A program made the translations under genes and the position numbers. A stretch of 64,000 bases of DNA from Hymenobacter sp. IS2118 (GTDB lineage Bacteria > Bacteroidota > Bacteroidia > Cytophagales > Hymenobacteraceae). The notes under the pieces were generated by a model. The model was not told the origin of the DNA and ran no database searches. It was given only the letters and a program-made list of their open reading frames with translations. The stretch covers positions 1-64,000 of the forward strand of contig NZ_JNLX01000145.1 in the NCBI RefSeq assembly GCF_000715495.1. The letters run 5' to 3'. How positions within the stretch are numbered: position 1 is the first letter of the stretch; the number at the start of each line of letters is the position of its first letter. Below are positions 12,911 to 22,183 of the stretch, piece after piece.

Positions 12911-14644
12911 TTAGTGGCCAAACTCCAGCCCTGCTTCAAGGCCGAACGTGTAGGCGCGGCTCTGACGCAGGTAGCCCTGCGCCGGGTTAGCGTTCAGGGT
13001 TAACAGGTTCATTTCGGCTACCGGGCCGAGCGTGAAGGCCCACAGGCCGCTGCCGGGCCGGAACTGAGCCCCCGCGCCTCCTTGCACGCTGGCCAGCAGG
13101 CGGCGGTAGGGCCCGCCGGCCGAAGCGATGGAGTAGGTTTTCGTTGCTTCGGGGGAGCCCGCTACTTCGCTGCGCACGCTTAGTAAGGCGTTCACCGCGC
13201 CGCCCAGGCGGCCATACAGGCTCCAGCCGCGCTTCAATGGGTTGTTATAGCTTGCTTCTACCGGAATGCCGGCCACGCGGTAGCGGAAGTCGGTGGCGTA
13301 CATTTTTCCGTTGGTAAACCGGCCCAAATCAATCAGCTGCTCGCCTACAAAAGCCGAGGTCGAAGCCGATTGGGCCGTGGCCTGCGACAGGCTCAAACCC
13401 GTGCTCAGCGACCAGTTGCCGGTGAGGTGGCGCTTGACGACCAGCGCGAGGCGTTGGCTGAGACCGGCCTGTAGGTTTTCGCGGTATTGAGTGGCGGCGG
13501 CTTCCGTCAGAGCCGGCGAATCGGGGCCGAGGGCGGGATTATATGGGTATTCGGTTTCGATGCCCGCGCGGGAGAAATTGATGTTGGGATTGAACGCCCC
13601 AACCGTGTAGGTGCCGCCAAAGCGCCATTTGCTGGTGGCCAAAGCCAGAGCGGGTTCCTCGGCCGGTATGGCCAGCGCCGCCAAACCATGGGGCAACGCG
13701 GCCGCGCCGCTCAGGCTCAACGCCGCCGGGCGGGCGGCCAGCAAGCCCACCGCCTCTGGGCCAGCCACGGCTGCCGCCGACCCGGCAGTAGCCAGGGCTG
13801 CCGAAGCACTGGCCGCACCCAGCCCCGCCGCGCTGCCAGCTACCAGCGTGCTGCCAGTCGCTGCCGTGGCAAGCGCTGCTTCGGTCGCCGGCAATGCCGC
13901 CGGATACACCCTGTCAGCGCCGCCGGGCGCCGGAGTTTCAGTAGCGTCCGCTTGCGTGGTGCGAGCTGCCGCCAGCTCGGTACCGCCGTTGGCCGCACTA
14001 TAAACTGTACCGGAAGCGCCATTGCCGGGTATTTCAACTACTCCAGTGCCAGTGCCAGCGCCGCGTCCGGCCGCAGTCGGACCATTGCCCAAGCCGGTGC
14101 GGGCAGCCGCAGGACCAAAGCCCGTGCTCCGGCGCGCCGACCGTTCCGCCGCCGCCGCCGCCATAGTTGCGGCATAAGTGCCGCGAGCCGGGGTGTCGGC
14201 AGCGGTTCCGCGGTTAGCCAGGCGGGTGGCGGCCGATGAGCTGGCCGACACGGAAGCGTTGGCGGGCATTGATTCGGCGGCGTTGTTTCCTGCCTGGGTA
14301 GCATCAGCACGGGACGGGCCCGAGGGGATATTGCCCGTAGTTGCTTGCGGTGTGCGAATGGTTGTGGCAACTTCCGCTCCGGTCATTTCGGCCGTGTGGC
14401 TGGCCCACCAACCGGTGCCGGCCAGCGTGGCCAGCAGCAGACTGGCCGCCGCTACCCAGCGGGTGGCAGCCAGTCGGCGGCGGTAAGTTTCGTTCTGCCG
14501 CACGAGCAGCGAGTTGTCAATCTGGTCCCAGAGCATGGGACGCGGGGGCACGGCGGCCTCCTCGCCCAGATGGTGGCGAAACAGGTCCTCTAAGCTGCCG
14601 GTGGGTTTAGGCGTAGAATTATCTTCGATAGGATTAGTTGACAT
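12911..14644 (-). CDS. Anti-sigma-like N-terminus, one TM helix, low-complexity linker and outer-membrane-barrel-like domain
   Basis: A 577-residue protein. Residues 1-60 are soluble and charged (LEDLFRHHLGEEA, LWDQIDNSLLVRQNETYRRR), like the cytoplasmic anti-sigma segment of FecR-type proteins though without a clear domain match. Residues 61-82 form one membrane helix. Residues 83 to about 335 are Ala/Gly/Thr/Ser-rich with little predicted structure. The last 240 residues have alternating hydrophobic beta strands typical of PorT-like outer-membrane barrels and end with an aromatic-poor ...GLEAGLEFGH. The start at 14644 overlaps the end of the upstream sigma-factor gene by 11 bases, suggesting translational coupling and a regulator role. 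If the barrel is real, the protein would reach from cytoplasm to outer membrane. Confidence 0.8.
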   Translation of the reverse strand: MSTNPIEDNSTPKPTGSLEDLFRHHLGEEAAVPPRPMLWDQIDNSLLVRQNETYRRRLAATRWVAAASLLLATLAGTGWWASHTAEMTGAEVATTIRTPQATTGNIPSGPSRADATQAGNNAAESMPANASVSASSSAATRLANRGTAADTPARGTYAATMAAAAAERSARRSTGFGPAAARTGLGNGPTAAGRGAGTGTGVVEIPGNGASGTVYSAANGGTELAAARTTQADATETPAPGGADRVYPAALPATEAALATAATGSTLVAGSAAGLGAASASAALATAGSAAAVAGPEAVGLLAARPAALSLSGAAALPHGLAALAIPAEEPALALATSKWRFGGTYTVGAFNPNINFSRAGIETEYPYNPALGPDSPALTEAAATQYRENLQAGLSQRLALVVKRHLTGNWSLSTGLSLSQATAQSASTSAFVGEQLIDLGRFTNGKMYATDFRYRVAGIPVEASYNNPLKRGWSLYGRLGGAVNALLSVRSEVAGSPEATKTYSIASAGGPYRRLLASVQGGAGAQFRPGSGLWAFTLGPVAEMNLLTLNANPAQGYLRQSRAYTFGLEAGLEFGH

Positions 14645-15284
14645 GGCGGATTGGAGCATTGAGGCGCTCCAGCTTAGTTTGTAAAATTGCCCGGCCCCTG
14701 GAGTATTGCGACTTGCTGGTGCCTTCGGTGATGCCTAATAGCTCGCCGATTTCTTTGTGGTTGTAGCCTTCGATGGCGTACAGGTTGAACACCATGCGGT
14801 AGCGCGGGGCCAACTCCTGCACCATCTGCAAAAGCTCCTGAAAATTATAATTGCTTAGGGTAAATTCTTCGCTGGCCAGGGTTTGCGGGTACTCGCCGTC
14901 GCTCACCGCCACCAGCGAGGCGTTGCGGCGGTGCTGGCGCAGGGCCGCGTTTATCATGATGCGGCGAATCCAGAACTCCAGCGGGCACTCGCGCCGGAAG
15001 CTGGCCAGGGTGCGGAACACCGTCAGAAAGCCTTCCTGCAGCACGTCTTCGGCTTCGAACGTGGTTTGGGCGTAGCGCAGGCATACGGCCATCATTTTGC
15101 CAGCGTACTTGTCGTAAAGCAGCTTCTGGGCCAGCTGGCGGCCGCGCAGGCAGCCGTCAATCAGCTCGGCTTCGGTGGGCGGCCCGGCGGTGGCGGCCCG
15201 GCTGGCCGTCAGGCGCGGGGCCACGGGCGTTTGGTCGGGTAGCACGTCATCGGCCCCGAACGCGAACCACGTCGCGGCGCTCAT
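14634..15284 (-). CDS. RNA polymerase sigma factor, ECF/sigma-70 family
   Basis: A 216-residue sigma factor. Region 2 (YAGKMMAVCLRYAQTTFEAEDVLQEGF, followed by RRECPLEFWIRRIMINAALRQHRR) and region 4 with its HTH (HKEIGELLGITEGTSKSQYSRGR) are intact, and regions 1 and 3 are absent as in ECF factors. The start at 15284 (MSAATWFAF) was chosen; a longer frame to 15398 gives non-conserved residues. About 45 residues before region 2 are Pro/Ala-rich and unusual. The downstream gene overlaps it and encodes a membrane-anchored protein that is a good candidate for its anti-sigma factor. Confidence 0.93.
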   Translation of the reverse strand: MSAATWFAFGADDVLPDQTPVAPRLTASRAATAGPPTEAELIDGCLRGRQLAQKLLYDKYAGKMMAVCLRYAQTTFEAEDVLQEGFLTVFRTLASFRRECPLEFWIRRIMINAALRQHRRNASLVAVSDGEYPQTLASEEFTLSNYNFQELLQMVQELAPRYRMVFNLYAIEGYNHKEIGELLGITEGTSKSQYSRGRAILQTKLERLNAPIRHVN

Positions 15285-15656
15285 GCCGACGGCCGGCAAA
15301 TCCTGCCGACGGGAAGAAGGGTAGAGAAGGTCATTTTTCGCAGCATAGAAAGGTAGTAGAAGTGTGCATGGCCCCGTCCCGTTGGTGGCCCGCTGCATGT
15401 GGATGCACCCGGACCCCGAATGGTTGCAACAACTTTCTAAAAAGACGTGGTGTGGGCTGGAGAGCAGCGGAATAATGCCTGCACGTCGAAGATATTGTGC
15501 GAAGAAACAATAACCTTAAATACACCTGAGGAGTATAAATAATGTAGGTACATTGTTTTGTGAGCTTCGCTTCCATTTACCTGCAACCTCACTGTGCAAT
15601 CCGGCTGGCGTGATTTGCCAGCGGCGTTACTTTTTCAACCCCTTTTCCTTTTTCGT
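15285..15656. other. Divergent intergenic region between sigma factor and wrbA
   Basis: This 372-base gap holds both promoters of the divergent pair. Two small dyads are visible: ATTGT-N8-ACAAT at 15494-15511 and AATGTA-GG-TACATT at 15541-15554. Either could be a regulator site. No convincing open reading frame or RNA gene was found. Confidence 0.45.
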
Positions 15657-16328: not shown

Positions 16329-17087
16329 TTACAGCTGGTTATGCGCCCGAATCAGTTCCCCAAACGACTCGCGGTAGGTATCGCCGACGGGCAGCAGCCG
16401 GCCGGCCACCTGCACCTTGCCGCGCTCGACGTGCTCGATGTGGCTCAGGGCCACGAGGAAGGATTTGTGGATGCGTGCGAACCGCTCGGGTGGCAGCACT
16501 TCCTCCACGCGGCGGAACGACTGGAGGGTGAGGATTTTGCCCGCCGAAGCCGTGTGCAGCAGCAGGTATTCCTTCATGCCCTCGATGTAGAGAATGTCGT
16601 CGAAGGCCACGCGCTGCAGGCGATGCTCGTTTTTGACGAACATGGCATCGATGGGCGGGGCGGCGACCGGACCCACCAATGCCGGCGCTGGCCCGGCGGC
16701 CGGTGCCGCGCCCGGTGTCGCGTGGGCCACGGCCTGCCGCACTTTGGCCACGGCTTGCAAAAACCGCTCAAAGGCGATGGGCTTGAGCAGGTAATCGGTA
16801 GCGTTGAGGCTGTAGCTCTGCACCGCGTATTGGTCGTAGGCGGTGGTGAAAACGATGCGCGGGCCGGGGCTGGGCAGCAGCTGCACCAGCTGCAGGCCGG
16901 TGAGGCGCGGCATGTGAATGTCGATAAAAACGACGTCCACGGGATTGTCCTGTAGGAAAGCCAGGCCCGTAAGCGCGTCATGAAATTGCCCCCGCAGGTC
17001 CAGAAATGGTATTTGGGCACAGTAGTCGGCCAGCAGGTCGAGGGCCAGCGGTTCGTCGTCAAGAAGGACGCAGGTCAGGCGTTGCAT
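16329..17087 (-). CDS. LytTR-family response regulator
   Basis: A 252-residue response regulator. The receiver domain occupies about 1-120 with acidic residues at Asp10/Asp11 and phospho-acceptor Asp56 (VVFIDIHMP) and the switch Lys in LLKPI. The LytTR DNA-binding domain is at about 150-248 (DILYIEGMKEYLLLH, RIHKSFLVALSHIE). A Pro/Ala-rich linker joins them. The cognate LytS-type kinase gene is 40 bases upstream on the same strand. LytTR regulators bind direct repeats upstream of target promoters; targets are not known here. Confidence 0.95.
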   Translation of the reverse strand: MQRLTCVLLDDEPLALDLLADYCAQIPFLDLRGQFHDALTGLAFLQDNPVDVVFIDIHMPRLTGLQLVQLLPSPGPRIVFTTAYDQYAVQSYSLNATDYLLKPIAFERFLQAVAKVRQAVAHATPGAAPAAGPAPALVGPVAAPPIDAMFVKNEHRLQRVAFDDILYIEGMKEYLLLHTASAGKILTLQSFRRVEEVLPPERFARIHKSFLVALSHIEHVERGKVQVAGRLLPVGDTYRESFGELIRAHNQL

Positions 17088-17127
17088 TGGTAGCAGGGCA
17101 AAGGAGCCCGCAAATAAAGGCAGATTC

Positions 17128-18330
17128 TCAGGCGCGGCGCGGGGCCGTGAGCCGTTTGGCTTCTCCGTGCAAGACTAGTTCCACGGCGTACTCGCCCGGT
17201 AGCGTGCGCACATGGAGCGCGTGGCGGCCAGGGTAGAGCAGTTCCAGGCGGCGGCGCAGGTTGTGCAGGCCCAGGCCGCCGGGCTGGTGCGGCAGGTCGG
17301 TGGCGGCTGCCACGTAATTGTGCACCGAAAAGTGCAAATCCTCGCCCAGCAGCTCCAGCTCGATGCGGATGGCCTCGGGGCGCGCCGCTAAATCGCCGTG
17401 CTTAAAGGCGTTTTCAACCAAGGGCAGCAGCAAGAGCGGAGCCACCGGAAACACCAGGTCGGCGGACCCGAAAAGGTGGAGGACGATGGCTGCCTCGGCT
17501 TCGGCCTGGGGCAGGCGCAGGCGCTGCAAGTCCAGAAAGCTGCGCAGGTGGGCCAACTCCTGACTCAGGGGCACCGTGTCGGCGCTGCTTTCATAGAGAA
17601 GGTAGCGCATGCTTTCGGCCAGGCGCAGCACTGCTTCCGGTGCGCGGTCCGATTTGCGGCTGGTGAGGGAATAGATGTTGTTGAGGGTGTTGAAGAGAAA
17701 ATGCGGATTGATTTGGGTTTTGAGCATGGCCAGCTCCGTGAGCAGGTGCTGGCGTTCCAGCTCGCGGCGCTGGCGCTGGCTGTGGAGGTAATCGAGCGCG
17801 ATGCGCAGGCCCGAGCTGGCGGCCACGGTCACCAGGTTGCCCACCCAGAGCATGGTAAACAGCATCCCGAAATGCGTGCTCAGGTCCGGGTCGTTGGTGC
17901 TCAGCGCGTAATACACCAGGTTGGAAGTGGCCATTCGCAGCAGCGTGAACCCCGCCGCCGAAGCTGCGGCGGCCAGCAGGTAGCGGTCCATGCGGCCGTG
18001 GGCCAGCGTGCGCGGAAATAGCACGGCCCAGTTCCAGTAGAACAGCGCCGCCGTCAGGGCATCCAGCGCGCCGTTGCGCACATACCACACCAGGTCGATG
18101 CGCACGTTGCTTTTCGGGCCGAGGAGCGTGGCGTAATACAGGAGCACATCGATGCCCAGCAGCACGAACAGTAGCAGTGCGTGCACCCACCACGGCACGG
18201 GTGTGGTTTCCGGCGCGCGCGGCCACCACTTAAAATCGCCGAAAGCGCGGGCCCGCCCGGCGGCAGCGGCCGGGCCCGGACTAGCCGTCCCCGGCCCGGG
18301 TGCCGCCGCCGAAACGAAAGAAGTATCCAT
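17128..18330 (-). CDS. LytS/YehU-type sensor histidine kinase (His_kinase family)
   Basis: A 400-residue membrane kinase with about four hydrophobic segments in the first 180 residues and no recognisable sensor domain. The His_kinase motif is QINPHFLFNTLNNIYSL with phospho-acceptor His210, followed by a HATPase_c domain (LVENAFKHG, GGLGLHNLRRRL). The start at 18330 (MDTSFVSAAA) fits better than the longer frame to 18498. It precedes the LytTR regulator by 40 bases and forms a two-component pair with it. Confidence 0.93.
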   Translation of the reverse strand: MDTSFVSAAAPGPGTASPGPAAAAGRARAFGDFKWWPRAPETTPVPWWVHALLLFVLLGIDVLLYYATLLGPKSNVRIDLVWYVRNGALDALTAALFYWNWAVLFPRTLAHGRMDRYLLAAAASAAGFTLLRMATSNLVYYALSTNDPDLSTHFGMLFTMLWVGNLVTVAASSGLRIALDYLHSQRQRRELERQHLLTELAMLKTQINPHFLFNTLNNIYSLTSRKSDRAPEAVLRLAESMRYLLYESSADTVPLSQELAHLRSFLDLQRLRLPQAEAEAAIVLHLFGSADLVFPVAPLLLLPLVENAFKHGDLAARPEAIRIELELLGEDLHFSVHNYVAAATDLPHQPGGLGLHNLRRRLELLYPGRHALHVRTLPGEYAVELVLHGEAKRLTAPRRA

Positions 18331-18545
18331 GCCGAAAGGTAGCCAGCGGCAAAAGCATCCGGCCCGCGTTTCAACCAACGGCTCCGGCATCCCGCCCAAC
18401 GCCTGCATTGGCGCCACCAACCACCTGCCGGCCCCCAATAGCAGCCTGGTAACTGCCAAACAGGCGTTTGAGGGCCAAAAGTAGTCGTTTCGGGACACGG
18501 CGGCCGGGTTGGTTGAATAGCCAGTAGCTAGGGATTTAGGGCGTT

Positions 18546-20130: not shown

Positions 20131-20874
20131 TTATTTACCATTCCAGATATCCCAGGCGGCCTCGGCTTGCAGGCATAGCATCTCGAAACCATTCTTTACC
20201 TGGGCACCCGCCTCCAGGCCCTTGGCCATAAACAGGGTTTCCATTGGGTTATACACCAGGTCGTAGAGGTAATGGTCGGCGGTGAGGGCGTGGTACGGGA
20301 GCTGCGGGCACTCGCCGGCGTTCGGAAACGTGCCCACTGGCGTGGCATTGATAATGAGCCGGTGCGAGGCCAGCAGCTGTGGCGTCAGGTCGTCGTAGGT
20401 GAGGCCCGGTCCGAGCAAGGTGCGCGACACGTTCCAATAGGGAATGCCCAACTCGCGCAGGGCCACCTCCACGGCTTTGGCCGCGCCGCCCGTGCCCAGC
20501 ACCAGGGCCCGCGCCGCCTCGCCGCGCAGCGGGCAAAAGGTGCGCAAGGAGTCCCGAAAGCCGATGTAATCTGTGTTGTGGCCCACCAGCCGTCCTTCAG
20601 CCGTGCGCTCAATCACATTAACGGCGCCCACGCGGTTAGCCGAAAGCGCCGTGTCGTCGAGGTAAGGCACCACTAACTCTTTGTACGGTACGGTCACGTT
20701 CAGGCCCGTCAGGTTGGGGTTGGCGGCCAGCAGCCTGGGCAGTTCCCCAATAGTGGCCAGCTCAAACAGGTCGTACCGGTGGTCCGCTAGCTGCTGCGAA
20801 TAAAATTTCTGCGTGAAGTACGTCTGCGAAAACGAGTGACTGAGGGTGCGGCCAATAAGCCCAAACTGACGCAT
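20131..20874 (-). CDS. aroE: Shikimate dehydrogenase (NADP+)
   Basis: A 247-residue enzyme reducing 3-dehydroshikimate to shikimate. The substrate-binding Ser pair is SHSFS near residue 13, the catalytic Lys is in NVTVPYKE, the Asn/Asp partner in HNTDYIGF, and the NADP-binding loop is LGTGGAAKA. The C-terminal DLVYNPMET and NGFEMLCLQAE motifs are also present. Length is slightly shorter than the E. coli enzyme, as is usual in Bacteroidota. aroK lies 38 kb away in the same window, so the two are not an operon. Confidence 0.97.
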   Translation of the reverse strand: MRQFGLIGRTLSHSFSQTYFTQKFYSQQLADHRYDLFELATIGELPRLLAANPNLTGLNVTVPYKELVVPYLDDTALSANRVGAVNVIERTAEGRLVGHNTDYIGFRDSLRTFCPLRGEAARALVLGTGGAAKAVEVALRELGIPYWNVSRTLLGPGLTYDDLTPQLLASHRLIINATPVGTFPNAGECPQLPYHALTADHYLYDLVYNPMETLFMAKGLEAGAQVKNGFEMLCLQAEAAWDIWNGK

Positions 20875-20918
20875 AAGGGGAATTCAAATAGCAGAAAAAC
20901 GCTCTAAAATAACACAAA

Positions 20919-20954
20919 AAAGCCGCCCCGGCCGGTAAAGGGCGGGGCGGCTTT
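20919..20954 (-). terminator. Terminator downstream of the DedA gene
   Basis: AAAGCCGCCCCG (20919-20930) pairs with CGGGGCGGCTTT (20943-20954). On the minus strand the stem runs into TTTTTT. It lies 44 bases past the DedA stop and upstream of the aroE start. Confidence 0.85.
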
Positions 20955-20997
20955 ATCAGTAGATTGCAATTTGTAAGAATTCCGGGAGGTAACGTCC

Positions 20998-21675
20998 TTA
21001 TTGGCCCTCGGCCACGGGCTGGGGGCTGAGCTTGCCTTTGATGAACGACCAGAGGGGCGGCAGAATGGACAGCAAAATAATCCCGTAGATAACCATGGTA
21101 AAATTCTTCTGCACCCATTCAATATTGCCAAAAAAGTAACCGGCCAGGGTGAGCGAAATCACCCAGAGCGCGGCGCCTGCAATGCTGTAGGAGATGAAAA
21201 AGCGGTAAGTCATGGTGCCCACACCGGCCACAAATGGCGCAAACGTGCGCACGATGGGCACGAAGCGCGCCATGATGATGGTCTTGCCGCCGTGCTTGGC
21301 ATAAAAAGCCTGCGTTTGGTCCAGGTATTTGCGGTTCAGGAACTTGTAGTTTTCCCGAAACACTTTCGGTCCCAGATAATCGCCTACAAAGTAGTTGAGG
21401 TTATCGCCCAAAAAGGCGGCGGCCATTAGCAGGGGAATGAGAATCAGGATATTCAGCAGCGGCTCCCCGGTTTCGAGGTTGGGCTGTGCTGCCAGCGTCC
21501 CGGCCACAAACAAAAGGGAGTCGCCGGGCAGGAAAGGAAAGATGATGACGCCCGTCTCGGTGAAGATAATGAGGAACAGAATGAGATAAGTCAGACTGCC
21601 GTATTCATTCACCAGGAGTTTGAGTTGCACGTCGAGGTGCAAAACAATATCGAAAAAATGCTTAATTAATTCCAT
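20998..21675 (-). CDS. DedA/VTT-domain membrane protein
   Basis: A 225-residue integral membrane protein. It carries the DedA signatures: FLPGDSLLFVAG in the first re-entrant segment and ARFVPIVRTFAPFVAGVG in the second, with basic residues in both. DedA proteins are implicated in recycling the lipid carrier undecaprenyl phosphate and in membrane homeostasis. The start at 21675 (MELIKHFFD) was preferred over 21735. It is followed by a terminator and separated from aroE. Confidence 0.93.
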   Translation of the reverse strand: MELIKHFFDIVLHLDVQLKLLVNEYGSLTYLILFLIIFTETGVIIFPFLPGDSLLFVAGTLAAQPNLETGEPLLNILILIPLLMAAAFLGDNLNYFVGDYLGPKVFRENYKFLNRKYLDQTQAFYAKHGGKTIIMARFVPIVRTFAPFVAGVGTMTYRFFISYSIAGAALWVISLTLAGYFFGNIEWVQKNFTMVIYGIILLSILPPLWSFIKGKLSPQPVAEGQ

Positions 21676-22183
21676 GCCAGATATAAGTGAGGCACAAAGA
21701 AAACCGTTAGTCGCCGAACCAGCCGAAGCCCCCACACTAAGGAGTAACTAATGAGGGCCTTTTACCAATTTAGCAGGGCCTTGGATTCGGTTATTTTCAG
21801 CAAGGCCGGAGAGAAAGGAGGTGGTATTATTTGATGAGAATATTTTGCGCCAGGCCCCCACTGTTCATACCTTTGTAGCTCAGATTCAAAACATAGCAGT
21901 ATAAATTATTAAATGTTTTTACAGTAGATACCGAAGAGCAGGAATAGGCGTTAGGAATACACTGGACGCGCAATTGAGCGTCGCGAAAGCCTCGCAGCTG
22001 GTTTACGAACCTTTGCATGAGGAACCAAAATTTGGAAAGTGGCATGACGTGTGCGGGGCACGACGGCGGTGGAAGTCTGTCCGTCACGCTTCTGAGCCTG
22101 GCGGCGTCTTTTCGAACAAAACCGCAATAACTCCCATTATGCCTTTCTCGTTGTAGGAGAGGACGTAACTTATACTTTATCGA
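21676..22183. other. 508-base intergenic region with a promoter but no clear gene
   Basis: This is the longest uninterrupted gene-free stretch in the window. It holds a good Bacteroidota promoter (21844-21875) whose transcript would run about 300 bases before reaching the bestrophin start. Short open frames exist on both strands (for example 21974-22156 on plus) but none has protein-like composition or a recognisable family. It could be a long 5' leader or a small RNA. Confidence 0.5.
21844..21875 (+). promoter_or_regulatory. Bacteroidota-type promoter TTTG-N20-TACCTTTG
   Basis: TTTG (21844-21847), a 20-base spacer and TACCTTTG (21868-21875) match the primary-sigma consensus of Bacteroidota in both boxes. 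Transcription would start near 21882, about 300 bases before the bestrophin-like gene. Confidence 0.65.

Follow-up and report, generated by a model that had tools for sequence, protein, structure and literature searches.

A predicted Dma-type dual-membrane anti-sigma factor operon in Hymenobacter sp. IS2118

The window analysed here, a stretch of 64,000 nucleotides from Hymenobacter sp. IS2118, carries on its minus strand an ECF sigma factor gene and, overlapping it, a gene whose product probably acts as a dual-membrane anti-sigma factor. With a probability of about 0.8, the operon is a switch of the Dma type, autoregulated and coupled to a short leader frame. Computed support comes from the conserved operon with its overlaps, the link of the N-terminal domain to ECF sigma factors, a membrane helix, a disordered tether, a barrel fold, a promoter and a leader frame. 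The idea of a sigma factor regulator whose chain extends to the outer membrane is already in print, in the form of the Dma proteins. According to PMC7406223, class I anti-sigma domains stand beside 6% of Bacteroidetes ECF sigma factors versus 32% across all phyla, and other anti-sigma classes are one possible reason for this shortfall. The N-terminal domain described below, with a sigma partner in 50 of 50 loci and with both fused and split barrels, offers a handle on that gap in environmental Bacteroidota, and the promoter motif and leader open reading frame (ORF) make the operon testable by reporter.

Gene layout and protein architecture

The features are as follows.

15401..15429, minus strand: predicted ECF autoregulatory promoter, with -35 element TTGCAACC (15422-15429), a 16-nt spacer and a -10-like CATCC (15401-15405)
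15281..15346, minus strand: leader ORF (uORF) of 21 codons, MLRKMTFSTLLPVGRICRPSA, its TGA overlapping the sigma start as ATGA
14634..15284, minus strand: ECF sigma factor gene, 216 aa (Pfam Sigma70_r2 and Sigma70_r4_2, TIGR02937)
12911..14644, minus strand: putative gene for a Dma-type dual-membrane anti-sigma factor, 577 aa, with an 11-bp overlap with the sigma gene
14462..14644, minus strand: N-terminal cytoplasmic domain, putatively sigma-binding, residues 1-61 (alignment A1, gene neighbourhood)
14405..14458, minus strand: single transmembrane helix, approximately residues 63-80, with RRRL in front (hydropathy; AlphaFold2 helix)
13652..14383, minus strand: Ala/Gly/Ser/Thr-rich periplasmic tether, predicted disordered, residues 88-331 (pLDDT)
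12914..13639, minus strand: predicted C-terminal eight-stranded outer-membrane beta-barrel, residues 336-577 (AlphaFold2, Foldseek, VIA)

The sigma gene runs from an ATG at 15284 to a stop codon at 14634-14636. Its product matches Sigma70_r2 (E 1.9e-13), Sigma70_r4_2 (E 5.1e-16) and TIGR02937 (87.5 bits, cut-off 42.9), has a short N-terminal extension ahead of region 2, and is 94% identical to its counterpart in Hymenobacter sp. BT770. For the second gene, conservation across the genus points to ATG 14644 (MSTN...) as the start, where the mechanical ORF list has ATG 14659; with the conserved start, the coordinates and the 11-base overlap given in the original prediction are right. The charged N-terminus and single membrane helix that it described are both present (helix RRRLAATRWVAAASLLLATLAGTGWW, by hydropathy), and its Ala/Gly/Thr/Ser-rich linker of about 250 residues measures 249, with 69% A/G/S/T/P.

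Three structural features of the Dma family can be recognized in the protein. The single helix is seen in the hydropathy profile, which peaks at 1.46 over 19 residues preceded by RRRL, and it overlaps residues 36-77, modelled as one helix in the full-length AlphaFold2 prediction. The long disordered tether is apparent from pLDDT values under 50 at residues 88-317 and 324-331 of the same model (49 sequences). Across 69 orthologues, this tether spans 163-267 aa (median 202) with 54-71% AGSTP, and its contour of roughly 55-100 nm, by our own arithmetic, is ample for crossing the periplasm. The C-terminal beta-barrel, predicted by AlphaFold2 from 68 homologues of the last 242 residues (mean pLDDT 89.7, pTM 0.86), has eight strands, the first two separated by a helix; DSSP recognizes one further short strand split off the fifth, and the barrel is again well predicted in the full-length model.

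The best solved matches of the barrel model include OmpA, NspA, OprF and PagL. Foldseek places OmpA first (E 4.7e-9, with moderate TM-scores of 0.48/0.62), and VIA-align gives Z 15.1 to an integrative OmpA model (3.2 Å over 168 residues) and 14.4 to NspA; four other OmpA entries score 13.0-14.1, and two OmpA structures from NMR score 8.6-9.1. The alternation of hydrophobicity between the barrel faces exceeds that of shuffled sequences (P 0.0008); it is clear in six of the eight strands and absent from the other two. In our reading of the model, four longer loops alternate with three short turns, which puts both barrel ends on one side and suits a periplasmic tether. Counting against the reading, the chain does not end in an aromatic residue, and 2-12 residues follow the last strand in the aligned homologues. 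On the whole protein, the Pfam match to OMP_b-brl_2 (PF13568) is sub-threshold (E 3.8e-5, 24.3 versus 27 bits; 27.6 bits with neighbours in frame), so that the barrel call rests on structure prediction. This Pfam result would suit a classical anti-sigma factor with a soluble periplasmic C-terminal beta domain, the outcome that the original prediction had named as speaking against it. When looked at by structure prediction, the domain came out as a barrel instead; the high confidence of the eight-strand model, its solved relatives and the alternating faces in six of the eight strands make a soluble domain highly improbable. The outer-membrane-barrel pattern first seen in the letters has its counterpart in a predicted eight-strand fold resembling OmpA and NspA.

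Sigma partners, conservation and split forms

Similarity to known anti-sigma profiles is weak: NF052375 scores the second protein at 21.7 bits, far under its cut-off of 100, and matches two of 50 relatives (E <= 0.001). The N-terminal profile A1, made from 25 sequences and with the sigma factor not part of the query, was searched against 395 genomes of the phylum and matched in 65 of them (E <= 0.01). These amount to 88 matches. Four are genus orthologues (L081-L084) and were excluded; from the 84 that then remained, 46 were taken for examination, mostly stronger matches, and 38 were left aside. Together with four loci from the orthologue search, 50 loci were read, four of them Hymenobacter paralogues. 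All 50, long and short forms alike, have an ECF sigma gene immediately upstream in the same orientation, with open frames ranging from a 107 bp overlap to 84 bp apart. At E <= 0.001, PF13568 is found in 16 of the 50 proteins and PF13505 in 10, two sets that may overlap. A FecR domain was absent from the Hymenobacter protein in a Pfam scan with E up to 1, OMP_b-brl_2 being the sole match. At least one further fused candidate is encoded in the same genome: L138, a 763-aa open frame with matches to NF052375 (E 2.0e-4) and PF13568 (E 8.1e-8) and a sigma homologue just upstream.

The second gene could also encode an outer-membrane protein co-expressed with the sigma factor and not inhibiting it, given that its link to the sigma factor consists of gene order and weak profile similarity. 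The N-terminal domain stands beside an ECF sigma gene in all 50 loci read, whether the protein is long or short, and this, together with the genetics of Dma proteins in Bacteroides (PMC13088901), renders such a role very unlikely; an anti-sigma function is preferred.

Orthologues of the second protein were sought in 119 genomes, its own included, at E <= 0.001. They were found in 76, namely 73 of the same genus and three from another family of the order, the latter matching by the N-terminal part. Since all 73 same-genus genomes among those listed have an orthologue (23 genomes with no match lie outside that listing, with kinship not shown, and further same-genus genomes such as G281 and G506 exist), the second gene is not a chance frame. 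A sigma homologue stands upstream on the same strand in all 76 loci read. The original prediction had suggested looking for this overlap in further genomes of Hymenobacter, and the outcome is positive: the anti-sigma gene overlaps the sigma gene by 11-20 bp in 53 of the 69 same-genus loci where its start is assignable, and lies 12-63 bp downstream in the other 16. The start is not assignable in L036, L054, L064 and L067; L077, outside the genus and with a mis-assigned start, is left out of this count, and L026-L028 are replaced by L074-L076, which have the same genes with fuller flanks. L054, L064 and L067 look frame-broken or shifted. The best 80 of at least 577 loci from named genomes belong to Hymenobacter, Solirubrum, Pontibacter, Adhaeribacter and one MAG labelled Hymenobacteraceae. 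Among these 80, the N-terminal domain is downstream of the sigma gene in 79 and shares its frame with the barrel profile in 78, the two exceptions being L221, whose available sequence is cut short, and L170, with N-terminal domain and barrel in two overlapping frames.

Short forms, classed by hand, account for 21 of the 50 N-domain loci (206-366 aa), L087 (357 aa) being kept with the long forms. A PF13568 barrel gene (E <= 0.01) follows the short anti-sigma gene in 13 of 20 loci; 11 are over Pfam's cut-off and two, L098 and L099, are below it. Among the seven loci with no following barrel match, six have downstream ORFs cut by the locus end. L112 stands outside the 20 scanned (the ORF picked had 113 aa), and a barrel match was found just downstream. 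With 7-16 PF13568 matches per genome in the five genomes searched, chance barrel neighbours would be expected to be rare. The frequency of such neighbours, together with this sparseness, therefore indicates that barrel and anti-sigma gene belong together, and that fused and split versions of one module exist. Split sigma/anti-sigma/OMP_b-brl_2 triplets of other Bacteroidota share the N-domain family and the barrel Pfam family with the Hymenobacter protein and differ in having anti-sigma (open frames of 206-366 aa) and barrel as separate genes. From our literature search, the split forms appear unreported in the open-licence literature covered, where neither OMP_b-brl with anti-sigma nor a Hymenobacter anti-sigma factor with a beta-barrel was found.

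The separate genes bear on another possibility, in which the helix is a late signal peptide and cleavage yields an ordinary outer-membrane barrel and a short anti-sigma peptide, with no bridge between the membranes. Anti-sigma factor and barrel can indeed be separate in other Bacteroidota (the 13 of 20 loci), and several of the separate barrel proteins start with what looks, by eye, like a signal peptide. Such cleavage is nevertheless unlikely: a 60-residue charged domain precedes the helix, helix and tether (163-267 aa) are kept in 69 orthologues, and Dma proteins are described in PMC13088901 as spanning outer membrane to cytosol. An intact chain bridging both membranes is thus the preferred form.

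Promoter and leader frame

Of the 72 genus loci with an assigned start, 71 have a TGCAAC motif 120-210 nt before the start codon of the sigma gene, as against 18 of 72 on the other strand (450 nt); in the exception, L009, TTGCAACC is present once the sigma start is corrected. The motif is followed, after a gap of about 16-19 nt, by CATCC, CTCC or TCTT, depending on the clade. All of the best 80 of at least 577 named loci have it in the 420 nt preceding sigma region 2, and 17 of the 50 phylum loci have it within 430 nt, where by our own arithmetic about five would be expected for any six-letter word. Conservation of this motif suggests that the operon is under the control of its own sigma factor, a reading against which the clade-dependent -10-like part counts.

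It also counts against this reading that other ECF sigma factors may use TGCAACC as well. With strict promoter patterns, the operon's own site was recovered in three of six genomes in a first scan and in four of six in a second (12 matches versus 5 in the reversed control); with up to 3 mismatches it was recovered in five of five genomes (28 versus 8). Some of the other promoter-like sites were looked at closer, in sets of four and seven, two of them identical. One site, found in five of five genomes with a single-base difference in G000, has a long open frame opposite it and looks coding (L250). Another lies 37 nt ahead of the start codon of a gene for an oxidoreductase-like protein (L239, L248), an SDR by our own reading, which is present in 74 of 74 genomes. 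TGCAAC is found within 150 nt upstream of this gene in 19 of 30 loci fetched, a count that includes as misses L273 and L279, for which the script evidently took the wrong strand; the sites are mostly TGCAACCTTT-N13-CATAC at a similar distance. The SDR-like gene may belong to the regulon, or a different ECF sigma factor may act on it. The latter is suggested by G050, where the SDR site keeps TGCAACC...CATAC (L272) and the operon promoter is TGCAACG...CTTCTT (L019). A gene for a small secreted protein (L142/L285) has relatives in 11 of 74 genomes, with TGCAAC in 4 of 11 at an unsteady site.

Between promoter and sigma gene lies a leader ORF, of 14-36 codons across the genus. The leader stop codon and the sigma start share bases in the form ATGA or GTGA, replaced by TAATG/TGATG in the clade whose sigma gene begins ATGGG. 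An in-frame leader is assigned in 72 of 73 genus loci by a script that requires the frame (L054 has none). The single phase found over 69 loci and 21 changes, in a comparison where, as in the pair comparison below, the starts of L006, L046, L047 and L050 were set by hand to the conserved upstream ATG, holds by construction, and the weight rests on frame-blind tests. In 66 loci, the 66 TATG within 130 nt upstream divide 63/0/3 across the three phases; the nearest upstream TATG, present in 60 of 66 loci, falls in a single phase in all of these 60, over 16 different distances. As loci are not independent observations, changes were counted on a tree. On the protein tree of 58 loci, the nearest TATG undergoes 19 distance changes and no phase change, whereas the promoter-to-sigma distance in the same loci shows 40 distance changes and 26 phase changes. 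One phase maintained through 19 length changes indicates that the leader frame is kept.

The encoded peptide is not constrained in the same way. In 118 pairs from 59 loci, leader differences at the three codon positions number 671/601/665, and synonymous/nonsynonymous differences (238/1043) are like those of the other frames (251/1015 and 207/1029); the same pair comparison over the first 40 sigma codons gives a third-position excess (1495/1274/2111). L050, one codon off in this comparison, has a unique length and is in no pair. A functional or arrest peptide is thus unsupported, as is a hairpin that would mask the sigma start (across 72 loci, mean z is -0.03, versus -0.01 for a control inside the sigma gene). 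Because the frame is kept while the peptide drifts, the simplest reading is a minicistron: the pattern suggests a leader ORF that delivers ribosomes to the sigma start by translational coupling. Frame conservation speaks for leader translation only indirectly. Two results count against coupling: the lack of hairpin support and the rarity of Shine-Dalgarno-like matches, with 2 of 72 before the leader ORF and 13 of 72 before the sigma gene.

Outside the genus, MQP... leader frames (L096, L097, L100, L106) coincide with the ATGCAACC promoter motif and were not counted. The script found no leader ORF in nine Pontibacter/Adhaeribacter loci, bar a frame in L229 that ends inside the sigma gene and was not counted either; its detection means that the frame-conditioned script has a chance rate. 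Pontibacter and Adhaeribacter keep the promoter motif, close to the sigma gene in five loci read. Leader ORFs or translational coupling of this kind appear unreported in the open-licence literature as judged by title and abstract start.

Proposed switch and relation to known systems

In the switch that we propose, the N-terminal domain would hold the sigma factor at the inner membrane, and the tether would link this inner-membrane part to the barrel in the outer membrane. A trigger at the outer membrane, which may be a ligand, an assembly failure or an altered distance between the membranes, would free the sigma factor, perhaps with proteolysis near the helix. Once free, the sigma factor would drive transcription of its operon from the TGCAACC promoter. 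On reaching the leader stop codon, ribosomes would re-initiate on the sigma gene and then, via the 11-bp overlap, on the anti-sigma gene, fixing the ratio of sigma to anti-sigma factor. It is tempting to go further and propose, at even odds, that a leader minicistron with selected frame and neutral peptide, serving solely to bring a ribosome to the sigma start codon, gates the operon at translation, that the Hymenobacter Dma protein is a fusion of anti-sigma and barrel modules kept as separate genes elsewhere, and that the split systems are unrecognised sigma switches sensing the outer membrane.

The closest likeness is to the Dma proteins of Bacteroides thetaiotaomicron, which have the same four-part layout beside an ECF sigma gene (PMC13088901). 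Dma2 is described there with an N-terminal anti-sigma domain, a helix, a disordered tether and a barrel, beside a putative ECF21 sigma gene; the phenotype of its deletion depends on the cognate sigma gene das2, and the same source reports repression of the cognate sigma factor and raised vesicle production on loss. The Hymenobacter protein shares the predicted helix, disordered tether and barrel and the adjacent ECF sigma gene, the last evident from coordinates, Pfam and the genus loci; its N-terminal domain may correspond to the anti-sigma domain. It differs in lineage, in its Ala/Gly/Ser/Thr-rich tether and in the leader ORF on the sigma start. The published layout, with the predicted barrel and disordered linker, supports the original prediction of one chain that runs from cytoplasm to outer membrane and regulates the sigma factor. 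By likeness to the published description, the locus works like, and most likely is, a Dma.

Two other systems can be compared. FecI/FecR/FecA signalling relies on a separate, large TonB-dependent barrel receptor. It likewise combines an outer-membrane barrel, an inner-membrane anti-sigma factor and an ECF sigma factor in one pathway; its receptor is separate, whereas in Hymenobacter an eight-strand barrel is predicted to be fused to the anti-sigma chain. RsgI of Clostridium thermocellum is one chain in which a cytoplasmic anti-sigma domain is connected via membrane and linker to a surface sensor. It shares with the Hymenobacter protein the single chain leading from a cytoplasmic anti-sigma domain through membrane and linker, but belongs to a Gram-positive organism that has no outer membrane, and its sensor binds carbohydrates.

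Predicted promoter and leader ORF of the sigma operon

Two predicted features precede the ECF sigma gene in the window:
15401-15429, (-) strand: predicted promoter, TTGCAACC-N16-CATCC
15281-15346, (-) strand: leader ORF, overlapping the sigma start

In Pontibacter and Adhaeribacter, too, the sigma gene is preceded by the TGCAAC word. Genus-wide comparison of the locus indicates that the leader frame is kept, while its peptide drifts. In the same neighbourhood, our reading of the ORF list places genes for a LytTR-type response regulator and a histidine-kinase-like protein at 16329-18498, (-) strand, adjoined by a divergent flavodoxin-like gene.

Similar motifs elsewhere in Hymenobacter

The related motif TGCAACCTTT-N13-CATAC precedes, at a comparable distance, an SDR-like (oxidoreductase-like) gene in many Hymenobacter genomes (loci L239, L248 and L255-L284), with TGCAAC present in 19 of 30 loci. 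The product carries a hydrophobic stretch at its N-terminus. Judged from sequence, this gene is a possible regulon member, either of the operon's ECF sigma factor or of another one. Near-matches were also seen ∼260-275 nt upstream of a gene for a secreted cupredoxin-like protein (a label from our own sequence reading) in three of five genomes:
L236, L237, L238 (genomes G000, which holds the window, G042 and G045): TAGCAACCTTT...GGCATC near-matches

Apparently broken, fused and split arrangements

Within the genus, the anti-sigma or sigma frame appears broken or shifted at three loci (L054, L064 and L067), which may reflect real loss or assembly error. The genome of the window itself contains a 763-aa open frame (L138, contig C122, around 20399-21955), a candidate second fused sigma/anti-sigma/barrel set. 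In the paralogue L112 (contig C70), the N-terminus carries a doubled ..(D/E)LFR..L..HATPP..LW motif and a barrel match follows immediately downstream; at the level of predicted genes, this pair is a split version within the same genome. In other Bacteroidota, short anti-sigma genes are directly followed by separate genes of the OMP_b-brl_2 barrel family (L093, L096, L097, L100, L106 and L110, among others).
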